Origin: Aromatoleum buckelii
GTDB lineage: Bacteria; Pseudomonadota; Gammaproteobacteria; Burkholderiales; Rhodocyclaceae
NCBI RefSeq assembly: GCF_012910785.2
Contig: NZ_WTVH02000009.1
Location: 682,001-746,000, forward strand
Reading direction: 5' to 3'
DNA length: 64,000 nucleotides
Positions 1-14,230 of the stretch are shown piece by piece. The notes below the pieces were generated by a model, which saw only the letters and a list, made by a program, of their open reading frames with translations, searched no databases and was not told the DNA's origin. Position 1 is the stretch's first letter. Each line of letters begins with the position of its first letter. Both the position numbers and the translations under genes were made by a program.

Positions 1-1280
1 ACCTGTGGGTCGCGAAGACGTTCAGCCTCGGCGACCGTCGCGGCAAGGTGAAAGTCGGCAACCAGGTGCTCTCGTGGGGCGAGGACATCTTCATCGTCGG
101 CGGCGTGAACCAGATCAACGCGATCGACCTGCAGAAATTCCACGTGCCGGGCACGCAGCTGAAGGAAATTTTCATCCCGGCGCAGATGATTTCGGCTTCG
201 ATGGACCTGACCGAGCAGCTCGGCGTCGAGGGGTACTACCAGTGGCGCTGGAACGGCTTCAAGTTCGACCCGTCCGGCACGTTCTTCTCGACGGTCGACG
301 TGCTCGGCAAGGGGCGGCGCATCGCATACGTGCCGACGAGCATCATCGAGGACTTTGCCGGCGTCGGCGCCTGCGCAGGCCTGCCGAACGGTCGCTGCGG
401 TGACGATCCCGGTCTTCCCGATGCCGATCTCATCGCCGAAGGCCTGGCAGTGCCCTATCTCGGCCAGGACGAGCCGAAGAAAGGCGGCCAGTACGGCGTG
501 AATTTCCGCTACAACGCCGAGGAGATCGACACCGAGTTCGCGTTCACGTATCAGCGCTACCACGACAAGCTGCCGTTCCTCGGCTTCACCGGCACTCCGG
601 AAGGCGCCGTCACCGGCTACTTCCTCGCGTACGGCGAGGACAAGGACCTGTACGCGATCTCGGCGAACACCAAGCTGATGAACATCGCCGTCGGTGCGGA
701 ATTGTCTTACCGGCCCGACGACAGCGTCGGCGTCGACCCGACGGTGCCGTTCGCGGGGAGGTTCAGCAGCTACGAGAACGGCAGGCATCCCGGTTTCGTC
801 GAGGAGGAGAAATACCAGTTCCACCTCACCGGCTTCTACACGTTCTCGCACAACGATCCGCTCGGCGGCATCGCGAAGGCGCTGGGCGCGGTCGACGGTT
901 TCATCCTCGCCGAGGCCGCGGTCGCGCATTACCCGGGTCTCGACCGCAGCGGCGTGACGCCGTACTTCCTGCCCGACTATTCGCTGCCGGACAAGACCTC
1001 GTGGGGCTACGTCGTCGAAGCGGCGCTGAACTACCCGAACGCGTGGGGCACCGGAGTCACGCTGACGCCGCAGATCGACTGGTACCACGACGTCAATGGC
1101 ACGACGCCGAACGGGCTGCCGTTCGTCGAAGGGCGCAAGGCGCTGACGCTGTCGCTGTTCGCGAACTACCGCGACAACTGGAAAGGCGGGATCCAGTGGG
1201 TCAACTTCTCCGGCGGCGGCGCGAACAACCTGATGCGCGACCGCGACTTCCTGGCCGCGAGCATTTCGCGTTCGTTCTGA
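1..1280 (+). CDS. DUF1302-type outer-membrane protein, 5' partial
   Basis: The reading frame is open from the left edge (first full codon at position 3), so the N-terminus and signal peptide lie outside the window. The visible part, about 425 residues, has many aromatic-ended beta-strand-like stretches and closes with SISRSF, a C-terminal Phe as in outer-membrane barrels. Phrases such as WGEDIF and YYQWRW resemble the DUF1302 family, which often accompanies DUF1329 and RND-type exporters in degraders of hydrophobic compounds. It is followed after 57 bases by such an exporter. Family assignment is from memory of its sequence style; substrate unknown. Confidence 0.75.
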   Translation, partial: LWVAKTFSLGDRRGKVKVGNQVLSWGEDIFIVGGVNQINAIDLQKFHVPGTQLKEIFIPAQMISASMDLTEQLGVEGYYQWRWNGFKFDPSGTFFSTVDVLGKGRRIAYVPTSIIEDFAGVGACAGLPNGRCGDDPGLPDADLIAEGLAVPYLGQDEPKKGGQYGVNFRYNAEEIDTEFAFTYQRYHDKLPFLGFTGTPEGAVTGYFLAYGEDKDLYAISANTKLMNIAVGAELSYRPDDSVGVDPTVPFAGRFSSYENGRHPGFVEEEKYQFHLTGFYTFSHNDPLGGIAKALGAVDGFILAEAAVAHYPGLDRSGVTPYFLPDYSLPDKTSWGYVVEAALNYPNAWGTGVTLTPQIDWYHDVNGTTPNGLPFVEGRKALTLSLFANYRDNWKGGIQWVNFSGGGANNLMRDRDFLAASISRSF

Positions 1281-1337
1281 GTTAGAGCGCCGGCGCGGCG
1301 GGAGCTTTCCGCCGTGCCGGCCTGACGGATACCCAAC

Positions 1338-3701
1338 ATGATCGAGACACTGGTGCGTGCGTTGCAGCAGGCGTGCTTCCGGCACCGCCCGATGATCCTG
1401 CTCGCGCTGCTTGGCTTCACCGTGGTGATGGCGGTGTTCGCTTCCCGCCTCGAAATGAGCGCCGGCTTCGACAAGCAGCTGCCGCAGGACCATGAATACA
1501 TTCAGACTTTCAACCAGTACCGCGATGTGCTGTTCGGCGCCAACCGCATCATCGTCACCGTCGAGGCGAAGAACGGCGACGTCTGGAACGAGAAGGCGCT
1601 GACGAAACTCCACGATGTCACCCAGGCGGTGTTCTTCATGAAGGGCGTCGACCGCCGCACGGTGACGTCCCTATGGACCCCGAACGCGCGGGCGGTGCAG
1701 ATCACCGAGGAGGGCATGCGGGCCGAGGACGTGATCGGCGGCGACGTCACCGTCAAGGCGCTCACCGACGACAACATCGCGGCGATCCGCGAGCGCACAA
1801 TCGTCGGCGGCTTCATCGGCAGCCTCGTCGCGAACGACTCGTCGTCGGCGATGGTCGTCGCCGAACTGGCCGATCCCGATCCGCAGACCGGTGAACGGCT
1901 CAATTACCAGGAATTCAGCGAGCGCCTCGAGCGCGAAATCCGCGACGCCTTCACCGACGACGACATCCGCATCCGCATCATTGGCTTCGCGAAGCAGATG
2001 GGCGACATCTCGGAAGGGGCGACCAGCGTCATCGAGTTCTTCGCGCTCGCGTTCCTGCTCACTGCCGCGGCGGTCTACTGGTACACCCGCTCGCTGATGC
2101 TGACTTTCCTGCCGCTCGCCTGCTCGCTGGTGTCGGTGGTATGGCAGTTCGGCACGATCACGCTGCTCGGCTTCGGCCTCGACCCGCTCGCGATCCTGGT
2201 GCCGTTTCTGGTGTTCGCGATCGGCGTGTCGCACGGCATCCAGCAGGTGAACTACATTGCCAAGGAGGTCATCAACGGCGCCGACGGCTACACCGCAGCG
2301 AGCCGCAGCTTCACGGGCCTGTTCGTGCCCGGCACGCTCGCGCTGATCACCGCCTTCGTCGGCTTCGCGACGCTGGTGCTGGTGCCGATCCCGATGATCC
2401 GCGAGCTCGCGATCACCGCCTCGGTCGGCGTCGCCTACAAGATCGTCACGAACCTGATCATGCTGCCGGTGGTCGCGAGCTATTTCCGCTTCGACGACGC
2501 TTTCGTGCTGCGCGCGGGCAAAGTCGAGGCGATGCGCAACCGCATGATGTCGACGCTCGGTGTGCATATCGCAAACCCGCGCAACGCCGCGATTGGCACG
2601 CTGGTGTGCCTCGTGCTGATGGGCATCGCAGTCTGGCAGAGCCAAGGCCGCCACGTCGGCCACGTGCTGCCCGGTGCACCGGAACTGCACGACGATTCGC
2701 GCTACAACCAGGACGTCGAAGCGGTCGTCGGGCGCTACGGCCTCGGTCTCGACTTGCTGACGGTGGTCGTCGAATCGCCTGCGGACGGTTGCTACCGCCA
2801 CGACGTCATGAGCTATGTTGACCGCTTGACGTGGTATCTCGCGAACGTGCCCGGCGTGCTGTCGGCGCAGTCGCTGCCGAGCATGACGAAGCTCGCCGCG
2901 TCCGGAGTCAACGAGGGCAACCCGAAATGGGCCGCGCTGCCGCGCGAGGAGCTGACGCTCGGCGAAGCGGTGCGCCAGGTGCCTGAAGGCATGCGGCTTT
3001 TCAACGCCGACTGCACGCTGCTGCCGGTGAATCTTTATCTGGCCGACCACAAGGCGTCGACGATCGAAGGGGTCGTCGCCGCAGTGAAGCATTTCCGCGC
3101 GATGCAGCCGTTCGACGGCGTCACCGTGCGGCTCGCGAGCGGCAACGCCGGCGTGCAGGCGGCGACGAACGAAGTCGTCGAGCATTCCGAACTCCCGATG
3201 ATGCTCTACGTGTATGCAACGATCTTGGTGCTGGTGTTCGCGGTGTATCGCGACTGGCGCGCGATGATCGCGTGCTGCGTGCCGCTGACGTTGGCGACTT
3301 TCCTCGGCTACTGGTTCATGAAGGAGCTCGACATCGGGCTCACGGTCGCGACCTTGCCGGTGATGGTGCTGGCGGTCGGGATCGGCGTCGACTACGCGTT
3401 CTACATCTACAACCGCCTGCAGATGCACCTCGCGCATGGCGACGACATCGTCACGGCGTTCAAGCAGGCGCTGCGCGAGATCGGCGTCGCGACGGTATTC
3501 ACCGCGGTGACGCTGTCGATCGGTGTCGCGACGTGGTCGTTCTCGGCGCTCAAGTTCCAGGCCGACATGGGGATGCTGCTGACCTTCATGTTCATGATGA
3601 ACATGATTATGGCGATCACGCTGCTGCCGGCGCTGGCGGTCACGATCGACATGCTGATTCCGCGCCGCGGCCCGGTCCGCGCGCCGCTGATGGCTCACTG
3701 A
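1338..3701 (+). CDS. RND/MMPL-family exporter
   Basis: A 787-residue inner-membrane protein with the RND plan in one chain: a TM helix near residues 15-35, a large extracytoplasmic loop, a TM bundle near 230-400, a second helix near 415-430, a second loop, and a second TM bundle near 625-775 ending in a short basic tail. The length fits the MMPL/hydrophobe-exporter branch rather than the ~1,000-residue drug pumps. It sits between a DUF1302-like barrel and a YCF48-like propeller, a trio seen around transport of hydrophobic substrates. No membrane-fusion protein is adjacent. Substrate is unknown. Confidence 0.85.
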   Translation: MIETLVRALQQACFRHRPMILLALLGFTVVMAVFASRLEMSAGFDKQLPQDHEYIQTFNQYRDVLFGANRIIVTVEAKNGDVWNEKALTKLHDVTQAVFFMKGVDRRTVTSLWTPNARAVQITEEGMRAEDVIGGDVTVKALTDDNIAAIRERTIVGGFIGSLVANDSSSAMVVAELADPDPQTGERLNYQEFSERLEREIRDAFTDDDIRIRIIGFAKQMGDISEGATSVIEFFALAFLLTAAAVYWYTRSLMLTFLPLACSLVSVVWQFGTITLLGFGLDPLAILVPFLVFAIGVSHGIQQVNYIAKEVINGADGYTAASRSFTGLFVPGTLALITAFVGFATLVLVPIPMIRELAITASVGVAYKIVTNLIMLPVVASYFRFDDAFVLRAGKVEAMRNRMMSTLGVHIANPRNAAIGTLVCLVLMGIAVWQSQGRHVGHVLPGAPELHDDSRYNQDVEAVVGRYGLGLDLLTVVVESPADGCYRHDVMSYVDRLTWYLANVPGVLSAQSLPSMTKLAASGVNEGNPKWAALPREELTLGEAVRQVPEGMRLFNADCTLLPVNLYLADHKASTIEGVVAAVKHFRAMQPFDGVTVRLASGNAGVQAATNEVVEHSELPMMLYVYATILVLVFAVYRDWRAMIACCVPLTLATFLGYWFMKELDIGLTVATLPVMVLAVGIGVDYAFYIYNRLQMHLAHGDDIVTAFKQALREIGVATVFTAVTLSIGVATWSFSALKFQADMGMLLTFMFMMNMIMAITLLPALAVTIDMLIPRRGPVRAPLMAH

Positions 3702-3711
3702 GGAGATGCCC

Positions 3712-4692
3712 GTGAAAAGATCGAACCGATTCACGCGCGGCATCGTGGTACTGGGCCTGGCGATCGGCGCCTTGGCGTGCGCGGCCGCCCCGGCCGCTCC
3801 GGACAGCATCACGACGACCGTGCCGGCGATGAAAGCAAGGCTCGCAGCGAAAGTGCCGCTGACCGGCATCGCACGCGCCGGCAACACGCTCGTCGCAGTC
3901 GGCGACTACGGCATGGTCGTGCGCTCGACTGACGGCGGCAATACCTGGCAGCAGGCCGAAGGGCCCGTCAGCGCGCTGCTGACAGCGGTGCATTTCGTCG
4001 ATGAGCGGCACGGCTGGGCGGTCGGCCATGGCGGTGTGATCCTCGGCAGCGACGATGGCGGCGCGAGCTGGAAGCTGCTCGAGGTGCTCGACGAGCGCCC
4101 GGTGCTGCTGTCGGTGCATTTCCTCGACGCCAAGCGGGGCTACGTCACGGGTGCCTACGGCGTGGCGTTCCGCACCGCGGACGGCGGGCGCAGCTGGACG
4201 CCGATGGCGGTGGGCAGCGGCCAGGATGCCGACTACCACCTCAACCACCTGTTCTCGGTGCGCGACGGCACGCTGTTCATTGCGGGCGAAAGCGGCCTGG
4301 CGTTCCGCTCGACCGATCGTGGCGCGAGCTGGACGAAGCTCGATACCGGCGTGTCCGGCTCGCTATGGAGCGGATTCGAGCTCGGCGGCGGCGAAGTCGT
4401 GTTGCTCGGCATGAGCGGCAAGGTCATCACGAGCCGGGACGGCGGCGATACCTGGCAGGCGCGAGACACCGGCACCGAGCAGTCGCTGACTTCCGGCATC
4501 ACGACGACCGACGGCGGCGTGATCGTCGTCGGAGCGGGCGGCGTGGTGTTGCGCGGCAAGGGCAGCGGCCCGCTGCAGCTGGAAATCCGGCCCGACCGGC
4601 AGAACCTCGCCGCGGTGATGACGGCCCCGGACAGCGGTGGCGTCGTCGTGGCCGGACAACTCGGCGTCGAGCGGCTCGTGCCGGCGCGCTAA
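3712..4692 (+). CDS. YCF48/HCF136-like beta-propeller protein
   Basis: An exported protein with repeated S-D-G-G-x-(T/S)-W motifs (STDGGNTW, DDGGASW, ADGGRSW, STDRGASW, SRDGGDTW), typical of BNR/YCF48 propellers. The GTG at 3712 is preferred over the in-frame ATG at 3706 because AGGAG (3701-3705) lies 6 bases before GTG but touches the ATG. The N-terminus (MKRSNRF, a hydrophobic run, then an Ala-rich cleavage region) looks like a signal peptide. It follows the RND exporter after 10 bases, so the two are probably cotranscribed; such propellers often accompany MMPL exporters. Exact role unknown. Confidence 0.8.
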   Translation: MKRSNRFTRGIVVLGLAIGALACAAAPAAPDSITTTVPAMKARLAAKVPLTGIARAGNTLVAVGDYGMVVRSTDGGNTWQQAEGPVSALLTAVHFVDERHGWAVGHGGVILGSDDGGASWKLLEVLDERPVLLSVHFLDAKRGYVTGAYGVAFRTADGGRSWTPMAVGSGQDADYHLNHLFSVRDGTLFIAGESGLAFRSTDRGASWTKLDTGVSGSLWSGFELGGGEVVLLGMSGKVITSRDGGDTWQARDTGTEQSLTSGITTTDGGVIVVGAGGVVLRGKGSGPLQLEIRPDRQNLAAVMTAPDSGGVVVAGQLGVERLVPAR

Positions 4693-4719
4693 TTCAGGAC
4701 ATTCCGTGGAGACCTCCGC

Positions 4720-5202
4720 ATGTTGACAAAACTGATGGCGCTGCTGTCCGGCGAACTCCAGCCCGAAGGACTGGAAACCGGTCCGTTCGAGCGACGCCAT
4801 ATTGCCGTCGCAGTCCTGCTGCTCGAGGCGATGTACATCGACCATCGCGCCACCGAGCGTGAGCACGCGGCTGTCGGCCGCCTGCTGCACAAGCATTTCG
4901 GCCTGGCGGAGGACGTCGCACGCCAGCTCGTGGCCATCGCCGACGAACGTTTCGCCGAGGTGCTCGACGACTGGGAGTTCGCTGAAGCGGTGCGTGCGGG
5001 CTTCGACGCGGCCGAGCGGCAGGAGGTGCTGACGATGTTGTGGGAGGTGGCCTATGCGGATGGCGATCTCGTCCGTCTCGAGGACCGCCTGATGAACCGG
5101 CTCGCGAAGCAGCTCGAAATCGGGCCGCAAGCGGCGGATGCGGCTCGAGCCGCCGCGGTGGCGCGCGCCGGGCTGCTCGACGATGGTGCCGGCGGAAGCT
5201 GA
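4720..5202 (+). CDS. TerB-like protein
   Basis: A 160-residue, mainly helical, acidic protein. The pattern LLLEAMYIDHRATEREHAAV near residues 33-52 and a second EVAYADGD(L)xxLED block near 108-120 match the two-fold TerB/DjlA-like fold with paired acidic residues. It starts 27 bases after the propeller gene with GGAGA upstream of ATG. TerB-like proteins are named for tellurite-resistance loci, but members at other loci have no agreed function and there are no other ter genes here. It may belong to the exporter operon or to the amine dehydrogenase operon that follows. Confidence 0.75.
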   Translation: MLTKLMALLSGELQPEGLETGPFERRHIAVAVLLLEAMYIDHRATEREHAAVGRLLHKHFGLAEDVARQLVAIADERFAEVLDDWEFAEAVRAGFDAAERQEVLTMLWEVAYADGDLVRLEDRLMNRLAKQLEIGPQAADAARAAAVARAGLLDDGAGGS

Positions 5203-5272
5203 CAGGGACGAGAGGCGCAACGATGAGCATTCCTCAAAATAAAGAACCACTTGGGTGGAAACGGAGGGCGAT

Positions 5273-6919
5273 GTGAAGGCGCAAATGAGCGAGGCGTTTC
5301 GCGAAGGGGTTCGCGACGGGATTCGCGACGCAATGCAGTATGGGGCGAGGATCGCGGGCGTTCTGGCCGTCGCGACAGGCGTGGCCGGTGTGGCGCACGC
5401 GGCGAACGGTGACGCCGCGGCGCAGCAGCTGCTCGAGGCGAAGTGCGGCGCCTGTCACTTGGACAACGGCAAGCTGAACCGCATTTCGGAGATCCGCAAG
5501 AGCCCGGAAGGCTGGGACATGACGGTCGTGCGCATGGGCATCTGGCACAAGGTCGAGCTGACGCCCGGTGAGCGGCAGACGATCGTCAAATACCTCGCCG
5601 ACCGACAGGGCCTCGCGCCGTCGGAGAGCGCGGCCTACCGTCCGCTCACCGAGCGCCAGCCGAACATGCAGGACACTGCGCCCGACGAGGAACTCGCGCA
5701 GATGTGCGGACGCTGCCACAGCTATGGACGCGTCGCGCTGCAGCGGCGTGACGAAGGCGAATGGCGCAAGCTGATGCACACGCACCTGGGCCAGTTCCCG
5801 AGTGCGGAATACTCGGCGATGGGCCGCGACCGCAACTGGTGGGAGATCGCCCGCGATCAGATGCCCGTGCGACTGGCAGCGCTGTACCCGAAGGACACGC
5901 CGGCCTGGCGCGAATGGCGCAGCGCGAAGCATCGCCCTGCGACGGGGAACTGGGTCGTCGCTGGCGAGCGCCCGGGCTGGGGGGCGTACACCGGCACGAT
6001 GACGGCGCGCGCGGCCGGGCCGGATCGCTACGAAGTCAGCTACGAGCTGCGCTTTGGCCCCGGCAACACGGTGCGCGGGCAGGGCGACGCGATCGTCTAC
6101 ACCGGCTACGAATGGCGCGGCTCGGCGAAGCTCGGCAACGAGGACACGCGCTCGATCTTCGCGCTGAGCCCCGATGGTTCGCGCATGTCGGGACGCTGGT
6201 TCCTCAAGGGAGCCGACGAGATCGGTGCACGCTTCGAAGCGGTGCGCGCCGACGACGCGGTGAAGAACGAGCTCGTCTCGGTCACGCCGCGGATGCTGCG
6301 CAACGGCGCGACGGCGGACCTGACGCTCGCCGGCGTCGCGCTCGACGCGAAAGTCGACTTCGGCCCCGGCATCGAAGTCGTCGAATGGCTCGGCACATCG
6401 CCCGGCGGGCTGAAAGTGCGCGTCCGCGTCGCGGCCGATGCGCCCGAAGGGGTGCGCAAGGTCGTCGTCGGCGGCCGCGAGTCCGCGCAGACCGTCGCGG
6501 TGTTCAAACGCTTCGACGCAGTGCGCGTCGAGCCCGCGTTTGCGGTCGCGCGGCTCGGCGGCGGCACCGTGGCGCCGATGAGCGCGCAGTTCGACGCCAT
6601 CGCCTTCCTCAACGGCGCGGACGGCAAACCGGGAACCGACGACGACATCCGCCTCGGCAGCGTGCCCGCGAAATGGTCGACCGAGCCGTTCGACGACCGG
6701 GCGCGCCACGACGAGGACGCGCGCTACGCCGGTCACATGGCGCCGCACGGCCAGTTCGTGCCGTCGTTCGGTGGTCCCAATCCGCTACGACGCGGCGGCA
6801 TCAACAACGTCGGCAACCTGTCGGTCATCGCGACGGTCGCCGACGGCGACCAGACGCTTAACGGCAAGGGCCAGCTGATGGTGGTTGCGCAGCGCTGGAA
6901 CCCGACACCGCTGCGCTGA
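5273..6919 (+). CDS. qhpA: Quinohemoprotein amine dehydrogenase alpha subunit
   Basis: The dihaem subunit of periplasmic QHNDH, which oxidises primary amines to aldehydes and passes electrons to a c-type cytochrome or azurin. Two c-haem motifs are visible: CGACH (Cys58, Cys61, His62) and CGRCH (Cys145, Cys148, His149), followed by a long beta-rich C-terminal region. A signal-like hydrophobic run ends near residue 43 (VAHA). GTG 5273 is chosen because GGAGGG lies 5 bases upstream; an in-frame GTG at 5255 and ATG at 5285 are alternatives. It is the first gene of the set alpha, radical SAM, gamma, beta. Phenylethylamine is a plausible substrate by analogy with related denitrifiers. Confidence 0.93.
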   Translation: MKAQMSEAFREGVRDGIRDAMQYGARIAGVLAVATGVAGVAHAANGDAAAQQLLEAKCGACHLDNGKLNRISEIRKSPEGWDMTVVRMGIWHKVELTPGERQTIVKYLADRQGLAPSESAAYRPLTERQPNMQDTAPDEELAQMCGRCHSYGRVALQRRDEGEWRKLMHTHLGQFPSAEYSAMGRDRNWWEIARDQMPVRLAALYPKDTPAWREWRSAKHRPATGNWVVAGERPGWGAYTGTMTARAAGPDRYEVSYELRFGPGNTVRGQGDAIVYTGYEWRGSAKLGNEDTRSIFALSPDGSRMSGRWFLKGADEIGARFEAVRADDAVKNELVSVTPRMLRNGATADLTLAGVALDAKVDFGPGIEVVEWLGTSPGGLKVRVRVAADAPEGVRKVVVGGRESAQTVAVFKRFDAVRVEPAFAVARLGGGTVAPMSAQFDAIAFLNGADGKPGTDDDIRLGSVPAKWSTEPFDDRARHDEDARYAGHMAPHGQFVPSFGGPNPLRRGGINNVGNLSVIATVADGDQTLNGKGQLMVVAQRWNPTPLR

Positions 6920-6931
6920 AGGAGACATCCC

Positions 6932-8365
6932 GTGACGACATTGCAGGTGCAGGCCCACAACTATCGTTCGATCCGCTCCGGCGGCCGGCATGTCCTGCTG
7001 CACGTGCCGACGACGTCGATCTTCGAGCTCGATCCGGCCGCGACCGACCTGCTCGGGCTGTTCGAGTCGACGCCCGCGGTCGCCGCCGACGACATCCAGG
7101 CGCGCTTCGACGGGCGTTATTCGCCGGGTGAGCTGTGCGACAGTCTCAGCGACTTCATCGAGCTGGGGATCGTCGCACCGCAGCCGAAGCACTACGAGAT
7201 CCCGCCGCGGCTGGTCGAGCGCTCGCCGCTGAAGACCCTCGTGCTGACGCTGACGACCGGCTGCAACCTCGGCTGCAGCTACTGCTACCGCGAGGACCTG
7301 ACGTCGCCGAAGAACTCGTCGGTGATGGACTACCAGACCGGCACGCGCTCGATCGATCTGCTGCTCGCCGAAGCGAGCGAGAACGAGCGCGTCGCAGTGG
7401 TGTTCTTCGGCGGCGAGCCGCTGACGCGCATCGCGGTGATCCGCGACCTCGTCGAATACGCCGAACAGAAGGCCGCGGCCGCCGGCAAGGACGTCGAGTT
7501 CTCGCTGACGACCAACGCGACGCTGCTCACCGACGACGTCATCGATTTCCTCGATGCGCACCGCTTCGGCATCACCGTCAGCATCGACGGCGGCGAAGCG
7601 CAGCACGACCGGCATCGCCGCACGATCGCCGGCGGCGGCACTTACAAGACGGTCGCGATGCGCGTGCAGCGCCTGCTCGAACGCTACAAGTCGCGCCCGG
7701 TCGGCGCCCGCGTGACGCTCGCCTCGGGCAACGTGGACGTCGCCGGCATTTACCGGCACCTGCACGACGAGCTCGGCTTCTTCGAAGTCGGCTTCGCGCC
7801 GGCGACCGCGGGGCCGGATTCCCCGGTCGGGCTGTCGCCGCAGGAGCTCGACGAAGTGTTCGCGGCGATGCAGGCGCTCGGCCGCGAATACGTCGGCGAA
7901 GCCAAGCGCGGCCGGCGCCACGGCTTCGGCAACATGCACCAGCTGATGACCGACCTGTGGATGGGTACGCGCAAGGTGCTGCCGTGCGGCGCCGGCGTCG
8001 GCCTGCTCGCGGTCGGGACGACCGGCAAGATCTCGCTGTGCCACCGCTTCACCGGCTCCGACTCCGACCTCGCCGGTTTCGGCGACGTGACGAGCGGCAT
8101 CGCGCGCGAGTCGCTGTCCGGTTTCGTCACCGCCGCGCAGAACCCGCATGCCACGTGCCGCACGTGCCCGGCGCGAAGCCTGTGCGCCGGCGGCTGCTAC
8201 CACGAATCGTATTCCCGCTACGGCGACCCGTTCCTGCCGACTTTCGAGTACTGCGAGCAGATCCGTGCGTGGATCGCGTTCGGCCTCGAAGCCTTCGGCG
8301 AGATCGCGATCGCCAATCCGGCCTATTTCAACGCCTCCAACGGACAAAGGAGTGCCAGACAATGA
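6932..8365 (+). CDS. qhpD: Radical SAM/SPASM maturase of QHNDH gamma subunit
   Basis: A 477-residue cytoplasmic enzyme of the QhpD family, which forms the Cys-Asp/Glu thioether bridges in the gamma subunit before export. The radical SAM motif is Cys111-x3-Cys115-x2-Cys118 ([11 protein letters not shown]). The C-terminal SPASM region carries many cysteines ([34 protein letters not shown]) for auxiliary Fe-S clusters. GTG 6932 has AAGGAG about 8 bases upstream. The gene ends in an ATGA overlap with the gamma-subunit gene, its protein substrate, which implies translational coupling. Confidence 0.95.
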
Positions 8366-8682
8366 AACGCTTGCGAGCCCTCAACCACAAGGCACAGCTG
8401 CTCGAACACGCTGTGCAGGAAGGCAACGGCGAGGAAGTGCAGCTGATGAGCAGCGTCGTCGGCTGCACGACGACTTTCGATCCGGGCTGGGAAGTCGACG
8501 CCTTCGGCGGACTGGCCAGCCTGTGCCAGCCGATGGAGGCGGATCTCTACGGCTGCACCGATCCGTGCTGGTGGCCGGCGCAGCTCGCCGACGGCCTGAA
8601 CAGCGCGCGCGACTGGACCGACGGCAAGAACTCGGCGCTGCGCGACTGGCGCGAGCTGCAGACCCTGTTCCCGGGAGATTGA
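8362..8682 (+). CDS. qhpC: QHNDH gamma subunit, CTQ-bearing peptide
   Basis: A 106-residue precursor of the catalytic subunit. With a 28-residue leader removed (mature chain from Met29), every modified residue of the Paracoccus denitrificans subunit has its counterpart: Cys35-Glu44, Cys55-Asp61 and Cys69-Asp77 for the three thioether bridges, and Cys65-Trp71 for cysteine tryptophylquinone. The leader has no hydrophobic core, so it is not a Sec signal; in the known pathway it is cut by QhpE and the peptide exported by QhpF. ATG 8362 overlaps the qhpD stop. The Paracoccus numbering is recalled from the literature. Confidence 0.95.
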
Positions 8683-8687
8683 GCATC

Positions 8688-9761
8688 ATGAAGAAACTGC
8701 TCGTTGCGCTGTGCTGCATTGCGGCATCGGCGTCCGCGATCGCCGCGGAATACCTGCTGACGGTGACGCGGCCGAACACCTTGCACGTCATCGACCCGGC
8801 CAAGCGCGAAGTCGTGCGTTCGATCACGATCCCCGGCGATGGCGTGCCCGGCACGATCACGGTGCCGAAAGATGGCAAAGTCGCCTACGTGCTGACCAAC
8901 CGCATGGAAAGCGTCGTCGGCATCGACCTCGACAGCGGCAACCAGGTTTTCCGCGCCGACTTCTCGAGTCCCGGCAAGCGCATCAAGGGCTTTTTTGCCG
9001 CCGCCGTCAGCGAGGACGGGCGCGAGCTGTACGTGCACCAGGCGCCGGTCGTGCTCGGGCGCTCCGAGTACCAGGTCGAGGACACTTACATCGCGGTGTT
9101 CGACACCGCCGACGGCGTCGGCGCGAAGCCGCGCCGCACGTTCCCGGCGCCGCGCCGCATCAGTCTCCTCGCGCCGACCGGCAACAAGGACCACCTGCTC
9201 GCGCTCGGCTGGGACATGTATCTGTTCAACACCCGCAGCGGGACGATCGAGAAGACTTTCCCGATCCGCCACTGGGATCGCCCCGGCCTCGGTGAGCCGG
9301 ACGTCCTGGCGATGTGGGGAACGTTCGAGCAGGCGCGCGCGCTGAGCACGCCGTATTTCGTCGCCAACACCGCTGCCGCGCCCGATTCCGCGGACGCGTT
9401 CAAGGCCGGCATTGCGGTGTTCGACCTCGACGCCGAGACGCTGAAGACGGTCGAGTTCGAGAACGCGCAGACGGCGATGTTCTCGTCGGTGATCAATCCG
9501 GCCGCTCGCAACGAAGCTTTCCTCGTCATGAACCAGCTGTCGAAAGTCGATACCGAAACCGGCAAGCTGATCAAGCGCGTCGACCTCGAGCAGACGTTCT
9601 ACGCCGTCAATATCTCGGGCGACGGCAAGGAAGTCTATATCGGCGGGGCGCTCGACAAGATCGCGATCCACGACGCCGAGACACTCGAGAAAACCGGCGA
9701 GATCATGATGCCGGGCGGGGCGGATCAGTCGATCGGATGGCTGCGGGTCGTGAAGCGCTGA
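8688..9761 (+). CDS. qhpB: Quinohemoprotein amine dehydrogenase beta subunit
   Basis: A 357-residue secreted propeller subunit. It begins with a clear signal peptide (MKKLLVALCCIAASASAIAA, cleavage near residue 20) and continues with YVTN-like blades (TITVPKDGKVAYVLTN, VSEDGRELYVHQ, ISGDGKEVYIGG). In known QHNDH this subunit encloses the CTQ site and supplies the base residue. It starts 5 bases after qhpC and is followed closely by the exporter gene, so the genes are one operon. Length and composition fit the family. Confidence 0.93.
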   Translation: MKKLLVALCCIAASASAIAAEYLLTVTRPNTLHVIDPAKREVVRSITIPGDGVPGTITVPKDGKVAYVLTNRMESVVGIDLDSGNQVFRADFSSPGKRIKGFFAAAVSEDGRELYVHQAPVVLGRSEYQVEDTYIAVFDTADGVGAKPRRTFPAPRRISLLAPTGNKDHLLALGWDMYLFNTRSGTIEKTFPIRHWDRPGLGEPDVLAMWGTFEQARALSTPYFVANTAAAPDSADAFKAGIAVFDLDAETLKTVEFENAQTAMFSSVINPAARNEAFLVMNQLSKVDTETGKLIKRVDLEQTFYAVNISGDGKEVYIGGALDKIAIHDAETLEKTGEIMMPGGADQSIGWLRVVKR

Positions 9762-9774
9762 CGAGCGTCGCCGC

Positions 9775-11493
9775 GTGATCGCGCTGCGGAAAAAAGGATC
9801 GCTGCCGCTGCAGGCGCTCGCGTGGGCGTGGCCGACCGTGCGCGGCCGCGCGGGCGCCGTAGGCGGCATTGTCGTGCTGTCCTTCCTCGCGTCGGGCGCC
9901 GCGCTGCTGCCGCCGTATCTCACGCAGCGCCTCGTCGATGACGGTATCGTCGGCGGGCGCATGGACGTGGTGCTGCAGCTGTGCGGCGCGTTCCTCGCGC
10001 TGCTCGTCGCCGGCGTCGCGATCGAAGCCGTTTCCCGGCTCGCGTATCTGAAGCTGTCCGCGCACGTGCTGTTCGGCCTGCGCGAACAGATCTACCGCCA
10101 CCTCCAGACGCTCGCGCCGACTTACTACGCGCGCACCCGCGGCGGCGAGATCCTGTCGCGGCTCGACGGCGACGTCGCCGAAGTGCAGCGTTTTGCGATC
10201 GACGCGCCGATGGGGCTCCTCAATGCGGCGTTCTCGCTGGTCGTCGCGCTGGCGCTGATGCTGTCGCTGAGCCCGCTGCTGACCGCGCTGGTGTTCGCAC
10301 TCGTGCCGCTACATGTCGCGGCGCTGCTCGGGTCGCGCGGATGGCTCGAGCGCAGCGCCCAGGCGGTGCGGCAGCAGAGCGCGGCGATGTCGAGCTTTTT
10401 CGTCGAATCGCTGCGTGCAATGAAGTTCATCCAGGCGACGAATGCCGGCGCGCGCCAGGAGGCCGAGCTGCGCGCGCATCATGGCGACTATTTCGCGGCG
10501 CTGCGGCGCTCGCAGGTCGCTTCGCTCGGCGCCGGGGGCGTGCAGCGCATCCTGTCGGGGCTCGGCGTGTTGCTGGTGTTCGCGGTCGGTGGCAGCCTCG
10601 CGGCGGCGGGCGAACTGACCGTCGGCGTCGTCGTCGCGTTCATTGCCTACACGACTCGCGCCGCCGGTCCGCTGCAGACTGCGGCCGGCGTTTTCATGGG
10701 CTGGCAGCGGGCGAAAGTCAGCCTGCAGCGGATCCGCGAACTGGCCGCCGAACTGCCGACGGTCACGTCGCCGGCCGAGCCCGTCGCGCTCGCCCGGCCG
10801 GTGCGCGGCGACCTCCGCCTCGTCGGCGTGCGTTTCGGCTACGGCGAGACGCGCGTGCTCGACGGCGCGTCGCTCGACATCCCGGCTGGCCGCAAGCTCG
10901 CCTTGGTCGGCGCGTCCGGCGCCGGCAAATCGACGCTGATCGATTTGCTGCAGCGTCATTACGATCCGGCCGCCGGACACATCCTGCTTGACGGCGTGCG
11001 GCTCGATCGGCTCGATCTTGCCGAGTTGCGGCGGCGCGTCGTCGTCGTCGATCAGGACCCGGTGCTGATGCCCGGCAGCGTGCGCGACAACCTGCGCTTC
11101 GTCGCGCCGGACGCCGACGAGCCGGCGCTGCTGCGCGCGCTCGACCTCGCCGGTCTCGCGCGCTTCGCCCACGCCGGCGGCCTCGACAAGGCAGTCGGCG
11201 CGTCGGCGTCGGCGCTGTCCCGCGGCGAACGGCTGCGCATCGCGCTCGCCCGCGCGATCCTGCAGGACCCGGCGGTGCTGATCCTCGACGAGACGACCTC
11301 CGGGCTCGATCTGCCGGTCGCCCAAGCGATCGTCATGGCGGTCGATCGCGTGTTCGCCGGGCGCACCCGTATCGTCATCACGCACAACCTCGCATCCGTC
11401 GGAGAGCTCGACGGCGTCGTCGAACTGCGTGACGGCATGCTGGTCGAGCAGCCGCCGGTGCGAGCGCCGGCGCCGCTGCTGAGGGCCGTATGA
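9775..11493 (+). CDS. qhpF: ABC exporter of the QHNDH locus
   Basis: A 572-residue half-transporter: six-TM exporter domain (about residues 25-310), then a nucleotide-binding domain with Walker A GASGAGKST (about 379), signature LSRGER (about 481, variant of LSGGQ) and Walker B VLILDE (about 501). In Paracoccus the equivalent protein is needed to deliver the crosslinked gamma subunit to the periplasm. The likely start is GTG 9775, 13 bases after qhpB. The gene ends in an ATGA overlap with the protease gene, matching the joint role of leader removal and export. Confidence 0.9.
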   Translation: MIALRKKGSLPLQALAWAWPTVRGRAGAVGGIVVLSFLASGAALLPPYLTQRLVDDGIVGGRMDVVLQLCGAFLALLVAGVAIEAVSRLAYLKLSAHVLFGLREQIYRHLQTLAPTYYARTRGGEILSRLDGDVAEVQRFAIDAPMGLLNAAFSLVVALALMLSLSPLLTALVFALVPLHVAALLGSRGWLERSAQAVRQQSAAMSSFFVESLRAMKFIQATNAGARQEAELRAHHGDYFAALRRSQVASLGAGGVQRILSGLGVLLVFAVGGSLAAAGELTVGVVVAFIAYTTRAAGPLQTAAGVFMGWQRAKVSLQRIRELAAELPTVTSPAEPVALARPVRGDLRLVGVRFGYGETRVLDGASLDIPAGRKLALVGASGAGKSTLIDLLQRHYDPAAGHILLDGVRLDRLDLAELRRRVVVVDQDPVLMPGSVRDNLRFVAPDADEPALLRALDLAGLARFAHAGGLDKAVGASASALSRGERLRIALARAILQDPAVLILDETTSGLDLPVAQAIVMAVDRVFAGRTRIVITHNLASVGELDGVVELRDGMLVEQPPVRAPAPLLRAV

Positions 11494-12206
11494 AACTGCG
11501 CGTCGGCATCGTCGATGGCGGTTTCGAGCGCGTGCCGCCGGCGGCGCTGCACGCCGCCGCGCAGTTCGCCAGCGGCGACTTCGATGGCGCCGAGTCGTCC
11601 GATGGGGGCGTACGCTGCGAAGCGCCGCATCGCCCTGCGCTGCCGCACGGCGAATGCGTCGCCGCGCTGGTCCTCGATGCGGCGCCGACCGCGTGCCTGC
11701 TCGACGCGCGCGTCGCCGCGCTCGCCCGACCCGCGACGCCGCGCCTCGTCGCCGCAGCGATCGACTGGTGCGTCGCCGAAGGGGCCCGGGTCGTCAACCT
11801 GAGCCTCGGCCTCGCCGACGACCGCCGCGTGCTGCGCGAAGCCTGCGAGCGGGCCGTGGGGCAGGGCGTGCTGCTCGTCGCCGCAGCGCCGGCGCGCGGC
11901 TCGCCGGTCTATCCGGCGCGTTATCCCGGCGTGCTCGCGGTGAGCGGTGATGCGCGTTGCGCTCCTGACCAATGGTCGCGGCTCGATCCGGCGAGCGCAG
12001 CCGGCGCCGCGTGGGGAACCTGTCCCGACGCGCCCGGCGGACGCCCCGGTGGCGCGAGCATGGCGGCGGCGCGCTTTGCCGGCATCGTCGCGAATCACCT
12101 CGTGCAGCACCCCGACGCGGGCCTTCGCGGGCTCCTCGACCACCTCGCGGCCTATGCCATCTGGCACGGGCGCGAAAACAGAAGAATCGCGGAGACCGAT
12201 TCATGA
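11490..12206 (+). CDS. qhpE: Subtilisin-like (S8) protease of QHNDH maturation
   Basis: A 238-residue compact subtilase with the triad visible as Asp9 (IVDGG), His53 (PHGEC) and Ser190 (GGASMAAARF). It has no signal or propeptide, consistent with cytoplasmic QhpE, which removes the gamma-subunit leader. The usual AAGN oxyanion segment reads AAAPARG here, so the oxyanion Asn is not obvious. The start overlaps the ABC exporter stop, and its own stop overlaps the next start (ATGA at 12203-12206), tying the UbiV-like gene to this operon. Confidence 0.88.
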   Translation: MKLRVGIVDGGFERVPPAALHAAAQFASGDFDGAESSDGGVRCEAPHRPALPHGECVAALVLDAAPTACLLDARVAALARPATPRLVAAAIDWCVAEGARVVNLSLGLADDRRVLREACERAVGQGVLLVAAAPARGSPVYPARYPGVLAVSGDARCAPDQWSRLDPASAAGAAWGTCPDAPGGRPGGASMAAARFAGIVANHLVQHPDAGLRGLLDHLAAYAIWHGRENRRIAETDS

Positions 12207-13114
12207 CCTCGACCTCAACCCCGACCGCTTCGATTACGCCAAACCCTCCTGCTGGTCCGATCGAGCTCGGCTTCGCGCTCGTCGACGAGCGTGAGCTGGC
12301 CGCGTTCGCGCGCCATGAGCGTGTCACGCGCGACGACTATCTCGAACAGCTCGGCGACGCGCGACAGTGCGTCACGCTGCCCGACGACGCCGAGCCGACG
12401 CATTTCTTCCTCGGCAGCGAGTTCTGCGAGCACCTGCTGCCGAGCGTCGAGGCGATCGATCGCGCCGTGGCCCTGTGCGAGCGCTGGGGAGTCACGTTCG
12501 GCCTCGTCACGCCGATCGCCTGCGACAGCCTGTTCGAGCCGCTTCGCGCCGCGTTCGCGCGCCTGCCTGCGGGCGCCGAAGTGACCGTCAACGACTGGGG
12601 CGTCGCGCGCGTCGTGCAGCGCGAATTCCCGGATCTGCGGCCGGTCGCCGGGCGCCTGCTCGGGAAGATGCTGAAGGACCCGCGGCTGCCGTCCGCGACG
12701 TGGGCGCGCATGTACCCGAACGGCCTGCGCGCCGGCCCGTTCCGCGAAATCCTCGACAATCTCGGCATCGGCCGCCTGGAACTCGACTTCCCGCCGTTCG
12801 GCGCTGCCGACATGTATGCCGGCATCGATTTCCCTGTCGGCGTACGCGCGCCGTATGGCTACATCGCGAAGGGCCGCATCTGCAAGCTCGGTTCGCTGGC
12901 GCTCGATGTACCGGAAAAATTTTCGCCCGGCCACCGCTGCCGCCGCGAATGCCTCGGCTTCTCCGAAGTCGGTGCCCGCCCCGGCACGCGTGAGCTGCAG
13001 ACTTCACAGCGCGGCAACACGATGTATTACCGCCACGCGCCTGGCATGACGGCGGCAATCGCCGAGGCGGTTGCGAATGGCTGGGTCAGCCGTATCGTCC
13101 TGTCGGGAGCCTGA
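12203..13114 (+). CDS. UbiV-like U32-family protein in the qhp operon
   Basis: A 303-residue protein of the peptidase U32 superfamily. It resembles UbiV: FFLGSEFC (Cys75) aligns by eye with E. coli UbiV YLGEAVC (Cys39), and Cys227-x18-Cys246-x3-Cys250 parallels the Cys180/Cys193/Cys197 ligands of its [4Fe-4S] cluster. TVNDWGV (residues 128-134) is typical of the family. UbiV works with UbiU in O2-independent hydroxylation during ubiquinone synthesis. Here the gene starts in an ATGA overlap with the QHNDH protease gene, and no ubiT-like gene is near. A role in cofactor hydroxylation on QhpC is inferred; anaerobic ubiquinone synthesis is the main alternative. Confidence 0.75.
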   Translation: MTSTSTPTASITPNPPAGPIELGFALVDERELAAFARHERVTRDDYLEQLGDARQCVTLPDDAEPTHFFLGSEFCEHLLPSVEAIDRAVALCERWGVTFGLVTPIACDSLFEPLRAAFARLPAGAEVTVNDWGVARVVQREFPDLRPVAGRLLGKMLKDPRLPSATWARMYPNGLRAGPFREILDNLGIGRLELDFPPFGAADMYAGIDFPVGVRAPYGYIAKGRICKLGSLALDVPEKFSPGHRCRRECLGFSEVGARPGTRELQTSQRGNTMYYRHAPGMTAAIAEAVANGWVSRIVLSGA

Positions 13115-13118
13115 CATG

Positions 13119-13183
13119 AAGCCCCCACGCTCGCTTTGTTCGCTGCCCCCCGAGGGGGTTGAGGCCTCCCTTGGGGGCGGCCC
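13119..13183 (+). repeat. GC-rich palindromic intergenic repeat (REP-like)
   Basis: A 65-base element made of complementary C- and G-runs: GCCCCC near 13121, a tight CCCCC-CGA-GGGGG hairpin at about 13146-13157, then CTCCC and TTGGGGGCGGCC. Sequences of this style recur between genes in betaproteobacteria. It occupies most of the 81-base space between the two U32-like genes and could act as a stem-loop that reduces readthrough or stabilises mRNA. Only one copy was noticed here, so the repeat call rests on recollection. Confidence 0.6.
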
Positions 13184-13195
13184 TACGGGAGTCCT

Positions 13196-14230
13196 ATGAA
13201 AATCACTGCACCGATCAGCACGCCTGCCGAAGTCGAACCGCTGGTGCGGGCCGGCGCGCGCGAACTGTATTGCGGCGTCGTGCCGCCGGACTGGATCCGG
13301 CGTTTCAACACTTCGGGCGTCAATCGCCGCGTGTTCGGCAACCTCAACGGCTATGCCGACCTCGAGCGCGTCATCGACAACGCGCACACGCTCGATGCCG
13401 AAGTGTTCCTCGTCCTCAACGCGCAGCAATACGGCGAGCAGCACCTCGACGCGCTGACCGAAATCGCCGCGCACTTTCGCAGCATCGGCGGCAACGCCGC
13501 GATCGTCGCCGACATCTCGCTGATCGCCTCGCTCACGGCGAACGTCCCGGATCTCGCGATCCACGTCAGTTCGGTCGCGACCTGCCGCAACGTCGAATCG
13601 GCGCGCTTTTTCGCGCAGCTCGGCGCGCGCCGCATCATCCTGCCGCGCGACGTCACCGTTGCGGAAATCTCCGCGATCGCAACCGAACTCCCCGAGCTCG
13701 ACATCGAAGCCTTCGTCCTCAACGACGGCTGCGTGTTCGAGGAGGGCACGTGCCACACCGTGCATCTGCCGATGAACAAGGGCGGACCGATCTGCATCGA
13801 CAACTACCAGTTCGAATACCGCGCGGCGAGCGGCGAAGCGCCTGCCGAACGGGCGCTGCGGCGGCTGGAAAAAAACGACCAGGACTACAAGCGCTGGCTG
13901 TGGTATCGCTTCGGCAACGGTTTTTCGGTCGCGCCGAACGGCTACCCGTGGGGCCCGTGCGGCCTTTGCGCAATGCCGGCGATGCACGCGGCAGGGGTGC
14001 ATTCGGTGAAGATCGCCGGGCGCGAAGGGGCGAGCGAGCGCAAGGTGAAGAGCGTCGAGCTCGTCCATGAGGTGTTGCGCCGCATCGAGGACGGCGAACC
14101 GGAGACGAAAGTCCGCGAATGCGCAGTCGGACTGCGCGACGCGCCGAGCCACTGCGCGAGCGGTTACATGTGCTATTACCCGGAGAAGCGCAGCCAGCCG
14201 GAGATCCCCGTTCACGCACAACCCGCCTGA
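13196..14230 (+). CDS. UbiU-like U32-family protein
   Basis: A 344-residue U32-superfamily protein. The N-terminal GARELYCG block is typical of the fold. Cys179-x6-Cys186 matches the Cys169-x6-Cys176 spacing of E. coli UbiU, and Cys200 and Cys255 (or 258) stand for UbiU Cys193 and Cys232, so a [4Fe-4S] site is likely. HSVKIAGRE (269-277) parallels the UbiU segment ASVKIEGRQ. A Cys-containing tail (RECAVGL, HCASGYMC) goes beyond the core. It lies 81 bases after the UbiV-like gene on the same strand, so the two probably form a heterodimer, perhaps modifying the QHNDH cofactor. Family call is firm; the job is inferred. Confidence 0.78.
   Translation: MKITAPISTPAEVEPLVRAGARELYCGVVPPDWIRRFNTSGVNRRVFGNLNGYADLERVIDNAHTLDAEVFLVLNAQQYGEQHLDALTEIAAHFRSIGGNAAIVADISLIASLTANVPDLAIHVSSVATCRNVESARFFAQLGARRIILPRDVTVAEISAIATELPELDIEAFVLNDGCVFEEGTCHTVHLPMNKGGPICIDNYQFEYRAASGEAPAERALRRLEKNDQDYKRWLWYRFGNGFSVAPNGYPWGPCGLCAMPAMHAAGVHSVKIAGREGASERKVKSVELVHEVLRRIEDGEPETKVRECAVGLRDAPSHCASGYMCYYPEKRSQPEIPVHAQPA

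Follow-up and report, generated by a model that had tools for sequence, protein, structure and literature searches.

How could the built-in cofactor of quinohemoprotein amine dehydrogenase (QHNDH), cysteine tryptophylquinone (CTQ), be made without air? The question is raised by a 64,000-nucleotide stretch of Aromatoleum buckelii DNA (contig NZ_WTVH02000009.1, positions 682,001 to 746,000; hereafter the window), in which a qhp operon lacks qhpG and ends with two genes, V2 and U2, coding for a divergent UbiV-like protein and a UbiU-like U32 protein. In the studied system, as described in PMC7876137, QhpG is the tryptophan dihydroxylase, both oxygens are derived from O2, and the CTQ-precursor tryptophan of the Pseudomonas QhpC is Trp43. 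Because both of its oxygens come from O2, QhpG should be unfit for work under anoxia. The strain Aromatoleum aromaticum EbN1 reportedly employs two QHNDHs in anaerobic amine degradation (according to the title of Schmitt et al. 2019), and the abstract of that work is said to describe CTQ maturation without a need for O2. Anaerobic QHNDH use in EbN1, set against the O2 requirement of QhpG, makes the tryptophan hydroxylation a puzzle, for which V2-U2 is a concrete candidate answer. We consider it probable, with good confidence, that V2-U2 is an O2-independent hydroxylase of the CTQ-precursor tryptophan in QhpC, a two-subunit U32 enzyme with [4Fe-4S] clusters that replaces or complements QhpG.

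The operon runs in the order qhpA, qhpD, qhpC, qhpB, an ATP-binding cassette (ABC) transporter gene, qhpE, V2, and U2 (Table 1). The products of qhpA, qhpB, qhpC, qhpD, and qhpE all passed the NCBIfam equivalog cut-offs, which identifies a QHNDH operon, and the encoded QhpC retains CWWPAQ, including the CWW precursor motif that is kept in 57 of 58 QhpC rows (repeats included, operon types pooled). As the first-pass annotation had described, the ATG of V2 overlaps the TGA of qhpE in an ATGA, and U2 comes after V2. The qhpG gene that belongs to such an operon was found neither in the window, where no QhpG match appeared at E<=1e-3, nor elsewhere in the genome, where a seven-member profile gave at best 25.8 bits over 57 positions. 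The same profile scored 417 to 698 bits in 13 of the 26 qhpD genomes surveyed, 7 of them Aromatoleum. A search of the window's genome with a single QhpG, run without a positive control of its own, gave no match either.

U2 is a U32 protein: it matched Pfam Peptidase_U32 (PF01136) at 151.7 bits (cut-off, 22.4), its predicted fold resembles 5d88, and hhalign aligned it with UbiU at a probability of 99.9% (E 7.5e-31). For V2, hhalign against UbiV returned a probability of 21.8% (E 0.00098), compared with E 0.012 or worse for seven unrelated qhp families and E 0.057 for UbiU; under other settings the UbiV alignment reached 5.6% (E 0.002). The label "UbiV-like" is therefore applied to V2 on the strength of this weak profile alignment together with its predicted fold, the way its cysteines are arranged, and the partner gene. 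All named cysteines are conserved, namely, Cys75, Cys227, Cys246, and Cys250 in 10/10 V2 rows and Cys179, Cys186, Cys200, and Cys255 in 12/12 U2 rows. The four of V2 align by hhalign with Cys39, Cys180, Cys193, and Cys197 of Escherichia coli UbiV, thus completing the UbiV set, and Cys179, Cys186, and Cys200 of U2 match Cys169, Cys176, and Cys193 of E. coli UbiU in 19/19 rows. The earlier claim that both proteins keep the UbiU/UbiV pattern holds for these seven cysteines; for U2 Cys255 the match is less plain, as in the alignment it occupies a different, nearby column from UbiU Cys232, though GYP precedes both in the window protein. UbiU and UbiV form a heterodimer with two [4Fe-4S] clusters (PMC6747719), and V2 and U2 would be expected to bind [4Fe-4S] clusters and each other. 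The predicted models, with a predicted local distance difference test score under 50 at U2 178-206 and at V2 224-226 and 229-233, preclude a reading of cluster geometry, and a PDB sequence search with U2, V2, UbiU, and UbiV gave no match at E<=0.1. Four further invariant cysteines of U2, at positions 130, 258, 320, and 326, lie beyond the UbiU-like set and perhaps form a second metal site.

The resemblance stops short of membership. U2 scored 84.1 bits against the UbiU model NF047963 (cut-off, 440), and two other U2 proteins scored 67.2 and 83.1 bits. In the tree, the 12 U2 rows form one clade (support, 100/100) outside the clade of the 7 UbiU rows (98/95). None of 8 V2 members matched the UbiV model NF047965 at E<=10, while the same genome's own UbiV gave 384.5 bits, and for V2 with seven aligned relatives the NCBIfam and Pfam searches gave only three unrelated families at chance level (E 0.12 to 0.31). 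By score and tree, U2 and V2 are thus not members of UbiU and UbiV but, judged from their sequences, a distinct U32 variant. U2-like genes also turned up in 129 plasmid records; the 40 listed (27.8 to 29.8% identity, several beside SCP2 genes) were taken as ordinary UbiU, and a V2 search of plasmids gave none.

A separate set of ubiquinone genes, on which the first reading depended, is present: ubiT, ubiU, and ubiV lie together on another contig of the same genome and exceed their cut-offs at 132.2, 557.6, and 384.5 bits, respectively. Since the genome has this genuine set, V2-U2 is not its ubiquinone pair.

We then compared genomes carrying qhpD, a gene reported from over 1300 species (PMC7876137). 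Loci came from a first search (27, one of them not qhp), from further genomes, and from 5 of 30 plasmid records with qhpD, and operons were scored by profiles built for this analysis; QhpG was recognized in other loci via the solved enzyme 7ctq (E 4e-123) and the NCBIfam QhpG model. In 26 qhpD genomes, qhpG was searched genome-wide, and U2-type genes were recognized by matches to the UbiU profile and in the loci themselves; U2 status in a further 12 genomes was obtained likewise. Left out or unclassified were the non-qhp locus (L033) and two short contigs with unreadable qhpG status (L014 and L021), whose genomes gave no UbiU over the cut-off. The same applies to records L012 and L056, which are one genome whose contig ends after qhpE; L007 to L012 are named records of genomes also within G665 to G680, counted once.

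Each of the 26 genomes has one or both systems: 13 carry the pair only, 8 both, 5 qhpG only, and none neither. The pair without a strong qhpG occurs in 10 Aromatoleum genomes, one Rhodocyclaceae metagenome-assembled genome (MAG), Sedimenticola selenatireducens, and G628, a member of the window's class; both systems occur in six Aromatoleum, Motiliproteus, and Sedimenticola hydrogenitrophicus; qhpG alone occurs in one Aromatoleum (G676) and in the genomes of L017, L024, L025, and L030. In the 12 additional genomes, the locus contains qhpG, and the UbiU search gave no U2-type match. Mutual exclusion of qhpG and the pair, as first anticipated, was not seen: the two are complementary, and because 8 of 26 genomes carry both, the pair is not a simple swap for QhpG. 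In 5 of these 8, qhpG and the pair occupy different places only.

Within Aromatoleum, qhpD is present in 17/17 genomes (10 pair only, 6 both, 1 qhpG only), and in the first-type operon V2-U2 follows qhpE in 15 of 16 genomes. In four of the six genomes with both systems, qhpG stands by itself: at L077 to L080 (G671, G679, G672, and G678, respectively), a strong qhpG (575 to 594 bits) is the only qhp gene in the fetched 12 to 20 kb. In the other two, qhpG belongs to a second qhp operon that has a further copy of the pair, arranged divergently from qhpA in L044 and upstream on the same strand in L045. These two loci share a stretch of about 45 bases (CGATTCTTGATAGCCCT ... GTGGCCGTTTC) upstream of V2, possibly a regulatory site. 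One of them, L044, belongs to EbN1: genome G666 was identified as this strain by a 6-kb match to EbN1 plasmid NC_006823.1 (100% coverage, 99.7% identity), and it has V2-U2 at both of its qhp operons (L047 and L044) and qhpG at the second (L044) only. Among the five plasmid qhpD loci, four have qhpG and no pair. The fifth is a qhp-like locus on a Novosphingobium plasmid (L066), where only a distant QhpG-like protein was matched (12574-13863, 48 bits).

Several operon comparisons are informative. Two closely related Sedimenticola operons read qhpE-V2-U2 (L031) and qhpE-qhpG-V2-U2 (L027). Of the two sets of qhp genes in Motiliproteus, one is accompanied by the pair (L082) and the other by qhpG (L083). 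In G628, which has no qhpG, about 28 kb separate the qhp operon from the pair (L081/L100), whose neighbors include genes for a nitrate reductase beta subunit and a molybdopterin oxidoreductase (the remaining nar gene names were assigned by inspection). In a MAG of the same genus (G690, L092), U2 and a V2 cut off by the contig end stand beside the same nitrate reductase genes. On a QhpD tree built quickly from 45 rows, the pair-only operon label needs 3 changes and the three labels together need 5; G628 and the cut-off L056 were labeled pair-only, and several long branches were flagged, including L041 and L013.

The pair also keeps company with qhpD and with anaerobic ubiquinone genes. In random samples, qhpD occurs in 3 of 300 genomes of the order and 2 of 369 of the class, with the window's genome in both. 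A U2 profile at E<=1e-30 likewise matched 2 of 369 class genomes, the same two with qhpD, namely, the window's own and the unrelated G628; the two sets of 369 were taken as identical from their equal counts and handles. Not counting the window's own genome, this amounts to one independent co-occurrence of U2 and qhpD, the other 367 genomes having neither. UbiU over the cut-off, which is a sign of anaerobic ubiquinone synthesis, was found in 21/21 genomes with the pair versus 3/17 with qhpG only, and it accompanies the pair in 5/5 cases when counted by lineage. Taken together, the missing qhpG, the separate ubiTUV set, the 26-genome survey, and the association with genes of anaerobic ubiquinone synthesis support the first-pass proposal that the pair substitutes for QhpG.

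A number of observations weigh on the other side. The similarity between V2 and UbiV is weak (hhalign 5.6% and 21.8%), both systems coexist in 8/26 genomes, and 16 of the 21 genomes with the pair belong to one genus, Aromatoleum. Three qhpG genomes in which no pair was found, G676 (Aromatoleum), G740, and G747, have UbiU, and in Paracoccus pantotrophus, which originates from a denitrifying plant, the fetched qhp locus contains qhpG but not the pair. In G677, the 16th genome of the first type, the contig ends after qhpE, and U2 alone was found, on another contig; in G690 no qhpD was detected despite U2, this assembly being 76% complete in 220 contigs. The class search scored at most 5 candidates per genome, and one of its two matches is the window's own genome. 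A scan for FNR boxes found none in 10 of 12 stretches; the window has three one-mismatch sites, all elsewhere and none ahead of the operon. Weak or ambiguous sites were seen in the other two: in L031 (S. selenatireducens), one with one mismatch at 8259-8272, 32 bases before qhpA, six such sites occurring in this 21-kb locus, and in L032, one with two mismatches. Finally, our reading is drawn from genes, homology, cysteines, and genomic company, and the activity of V2-U2 is a predicted one.

We propose the following sequence of events. QhpD would first install the thioether crosslinks of QhpC, and V2-U2 would then hydroxylate the CTQ-precursor tryptophan without O2, adding either both oxygens or only the first. 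As proposed for UbiU-UbiV, the oxygen would probably come from prephenate, the donor suggested here by analogy. QhpE would next cleave the leader, and the subunit would mature in the periplasm. In anoxic cells, V2-U2 would thus play the role that the O2-dependent flavoprotein QhpG has in air. QhpC as substrate and hydroxylation as the reaction are predicted. U32 oxidases hydroxylate without O2, and the hydroxyl group of anaerobic ubiquinone derives from prephenate, according to PMC11574389, which places the characterized enzymes in ubiquinone synthesis and RNA modification and reports that direct proof of U32 catalysis in prephenate-derived hydroxylation is lacking. It seems somewhat more probable than its opposite that V2-U2 is the first U32 enzyme acting on a protein residue, a prephenate-dependent, O2-independent peptidyl-tryptophan dihydroxylase that enables anoxic QHNDH maturation. 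If so, the pair would explain how CTQ is built without air, and it would extend U32 oxidases to proteins. Matched O2-dependent and O2-independent hydroxylases exist for tRNA; with ubiquinone and tRNA, CTQ would be another such case. No open-access paper joining QHNDH with U32 was found, an earlier mention being possible in the subscription literature, most of which lay outside the search; tryptophylquinone was not found together with UbiU, U32, prephenate, or oxygen-independent among the open-access matches listed.

Of the other explanations, the most durable is a variant that is compatible with our proposal and overlaps it in probability. The pair might add the first hydroxyl only, the second oxygen entering from water after oxidation, e.g., by the periplasmic QhpA hemes. 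The two oxygens are described as arriving in separate steps in the tryptophan tryptophylquinone (TTQ) and LodA/GoxA systems, unlike with QhpG (PMC7876137), but the genome data fit one or two oxygens alike, and we regard this variant as possible though on the unlikely side. Less probable still is a role of the pair as a chaperone or electron-transfer partner of QhpD with no hydroxylase activity. QhpD requires low-potential electrons, which would suit such a partner. QhpG, too, is stated in PMC7876137 to assist QhpD, and whatever replaces it could therefore do likewise. This reading would, however, leave the 13 of 26 pair-only genomes without a known hydroxylase, and qhpG-only operons manage without the pair.

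Two further possibilities appear very improbable to us. One is that the pair acts as a hydroxylase on a small molecule formed during amine or aromatic breakdown, which would suit the anaerobic aromatic degradation of the host bacteria and the varied substrates ascribed to U32 oxidases in PMC11574389; against it, V2 and U2 overlap or follow qhpE, adjoin qhpG in Sedimenticola, and accompany qhp across several genera. The other, equally improbable, is that in Aromatoleum the step is performed by a qhpG diverged beyond detection or by another oxygenase. Absence was judged here by sequence search, and weak partial matches (25.7 to 29.5 bits) do occur in 3 of the 13 pair-only genomes, but the same profile recovers qhpG at 417 to 698 bits in 13 of 26 genomes, including Aromatoleum, and no oxygenase could function in the absence of O2. 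The least credible explanation is that V2-U2 serves as an additional UbiUV, working on ubiquinone or a different quinone, and stands beside qhp by chance: U2 is related to UbiU, but it forms a separate clade, tracks qhpD, and coexists with genuine UbiT, UbiU, and UbiV.

The coordinates of the operon are collected in Table 1. The family model of QhpA spans residues 49 to 553, and its start codon is putative; the qhpD of the window is 98% identical to that of Aromatoleum anaerobium.

Table 1. Genes of the qhp operon in the window, with the basis of each assignment
Gene and product	Coordinates	Strand	Basis
qhpA, QHNDH alpha (di-heme) subunit	5255..6919	+	TIGR03908, 787.8 bits, cut-off 274.35
qhpD, radical S-adenosylmethionine maturase	6932..8365	+	TIGR03906, 781.5 bits, cut-off 453
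qhpC, gamma subunit, CTQ-bearing substrate	8362..8682	+	NF037958, 161.1 bits, cut-off 50
qhpB, beta subunit	8688..9761	+	TIGR03907, 518 bits, cut-off 223.2
ABC transporter, which we take to be qhpF	9775..11493	+	generic ABC models only; similar gene in most relatives' loci
qhpE, subtilisin-like protease	11490..12206	+	NCBIfam NF049966 QhpE, 233.9 bits, cut-off 165
V2, divergent UbiV-like protein, 303 aa, proposed [4Fe-4S] subunit (Cys75, 227, 246, 250)	12203..13114	+	ATGA overlap, cysteines, hhalign to UbiV
U2, UbiU-like U32 protein, 344 aa, proposed [4Fe-4S] subunit (Cys179, 186, 200, 255)	13196..14230	+	Pfam U32, hhalign to UbiU, separate clade

Ahead of the operon lies a block of DUF1302, MMPL, YCF48, and TerB genes (window 48-5202), which precedes qhp in all six named Aromatoleum/Azoarcus loci (L007 to L012); in L013, DUF1302 and MMPL genes lie downstream of qhp. 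Four more U32 genes, unlike UbiU, UbiV, TrhP, or V2/U2, are clustered in another Aromatoleum locus (L098, G671:C1:4850000-4865000, at 5894-10709), and similar clusters occur in 10 of the 17 Aromatoleum genomes.

Among known systems, UbiU-UbiV is the closest to V2-U2. Both consist of two adjacent genes in the company of anaerobic respiration, and V2 matches the four cluster cysteines of UbiV while U2 aligns three of the four of UbiU. They differ in that U2 reaches 84 bits against a cut-off of 440, forms its own clade, and has four extra invariant cysteines, that V2 falls into no family, and that ubiT adjoins the genuine ubiU-ubiV in this genome rather than V2-U2; V2-U2 is tied to qhp, and a protein tryptophan is therefore its likely substrate, unlike that of UbiU-UbiV. 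TrhP and RlhA, the prephenate-linked RNA hydroxylases, share the U32 family and the proposed donor with the pair, but they act on RNA and lie outside the U2 clade. V2-U2 would perform the same step on QhpC as QhpG, whose gene stands after qhpE and ahead of V2 in one Sedimenticola operon but is missing from that place in the other; QhpG is nevertheless a protein unrelated to V2 and U2 that uses flavin adenine dinucleotide and O2. Compared with the QHNDH operon qhpADCBEFG, the window has the structural genes, qhpD, qhpE, and the ABC transporter gene, but it is without qhpG and has V2-U2 added.

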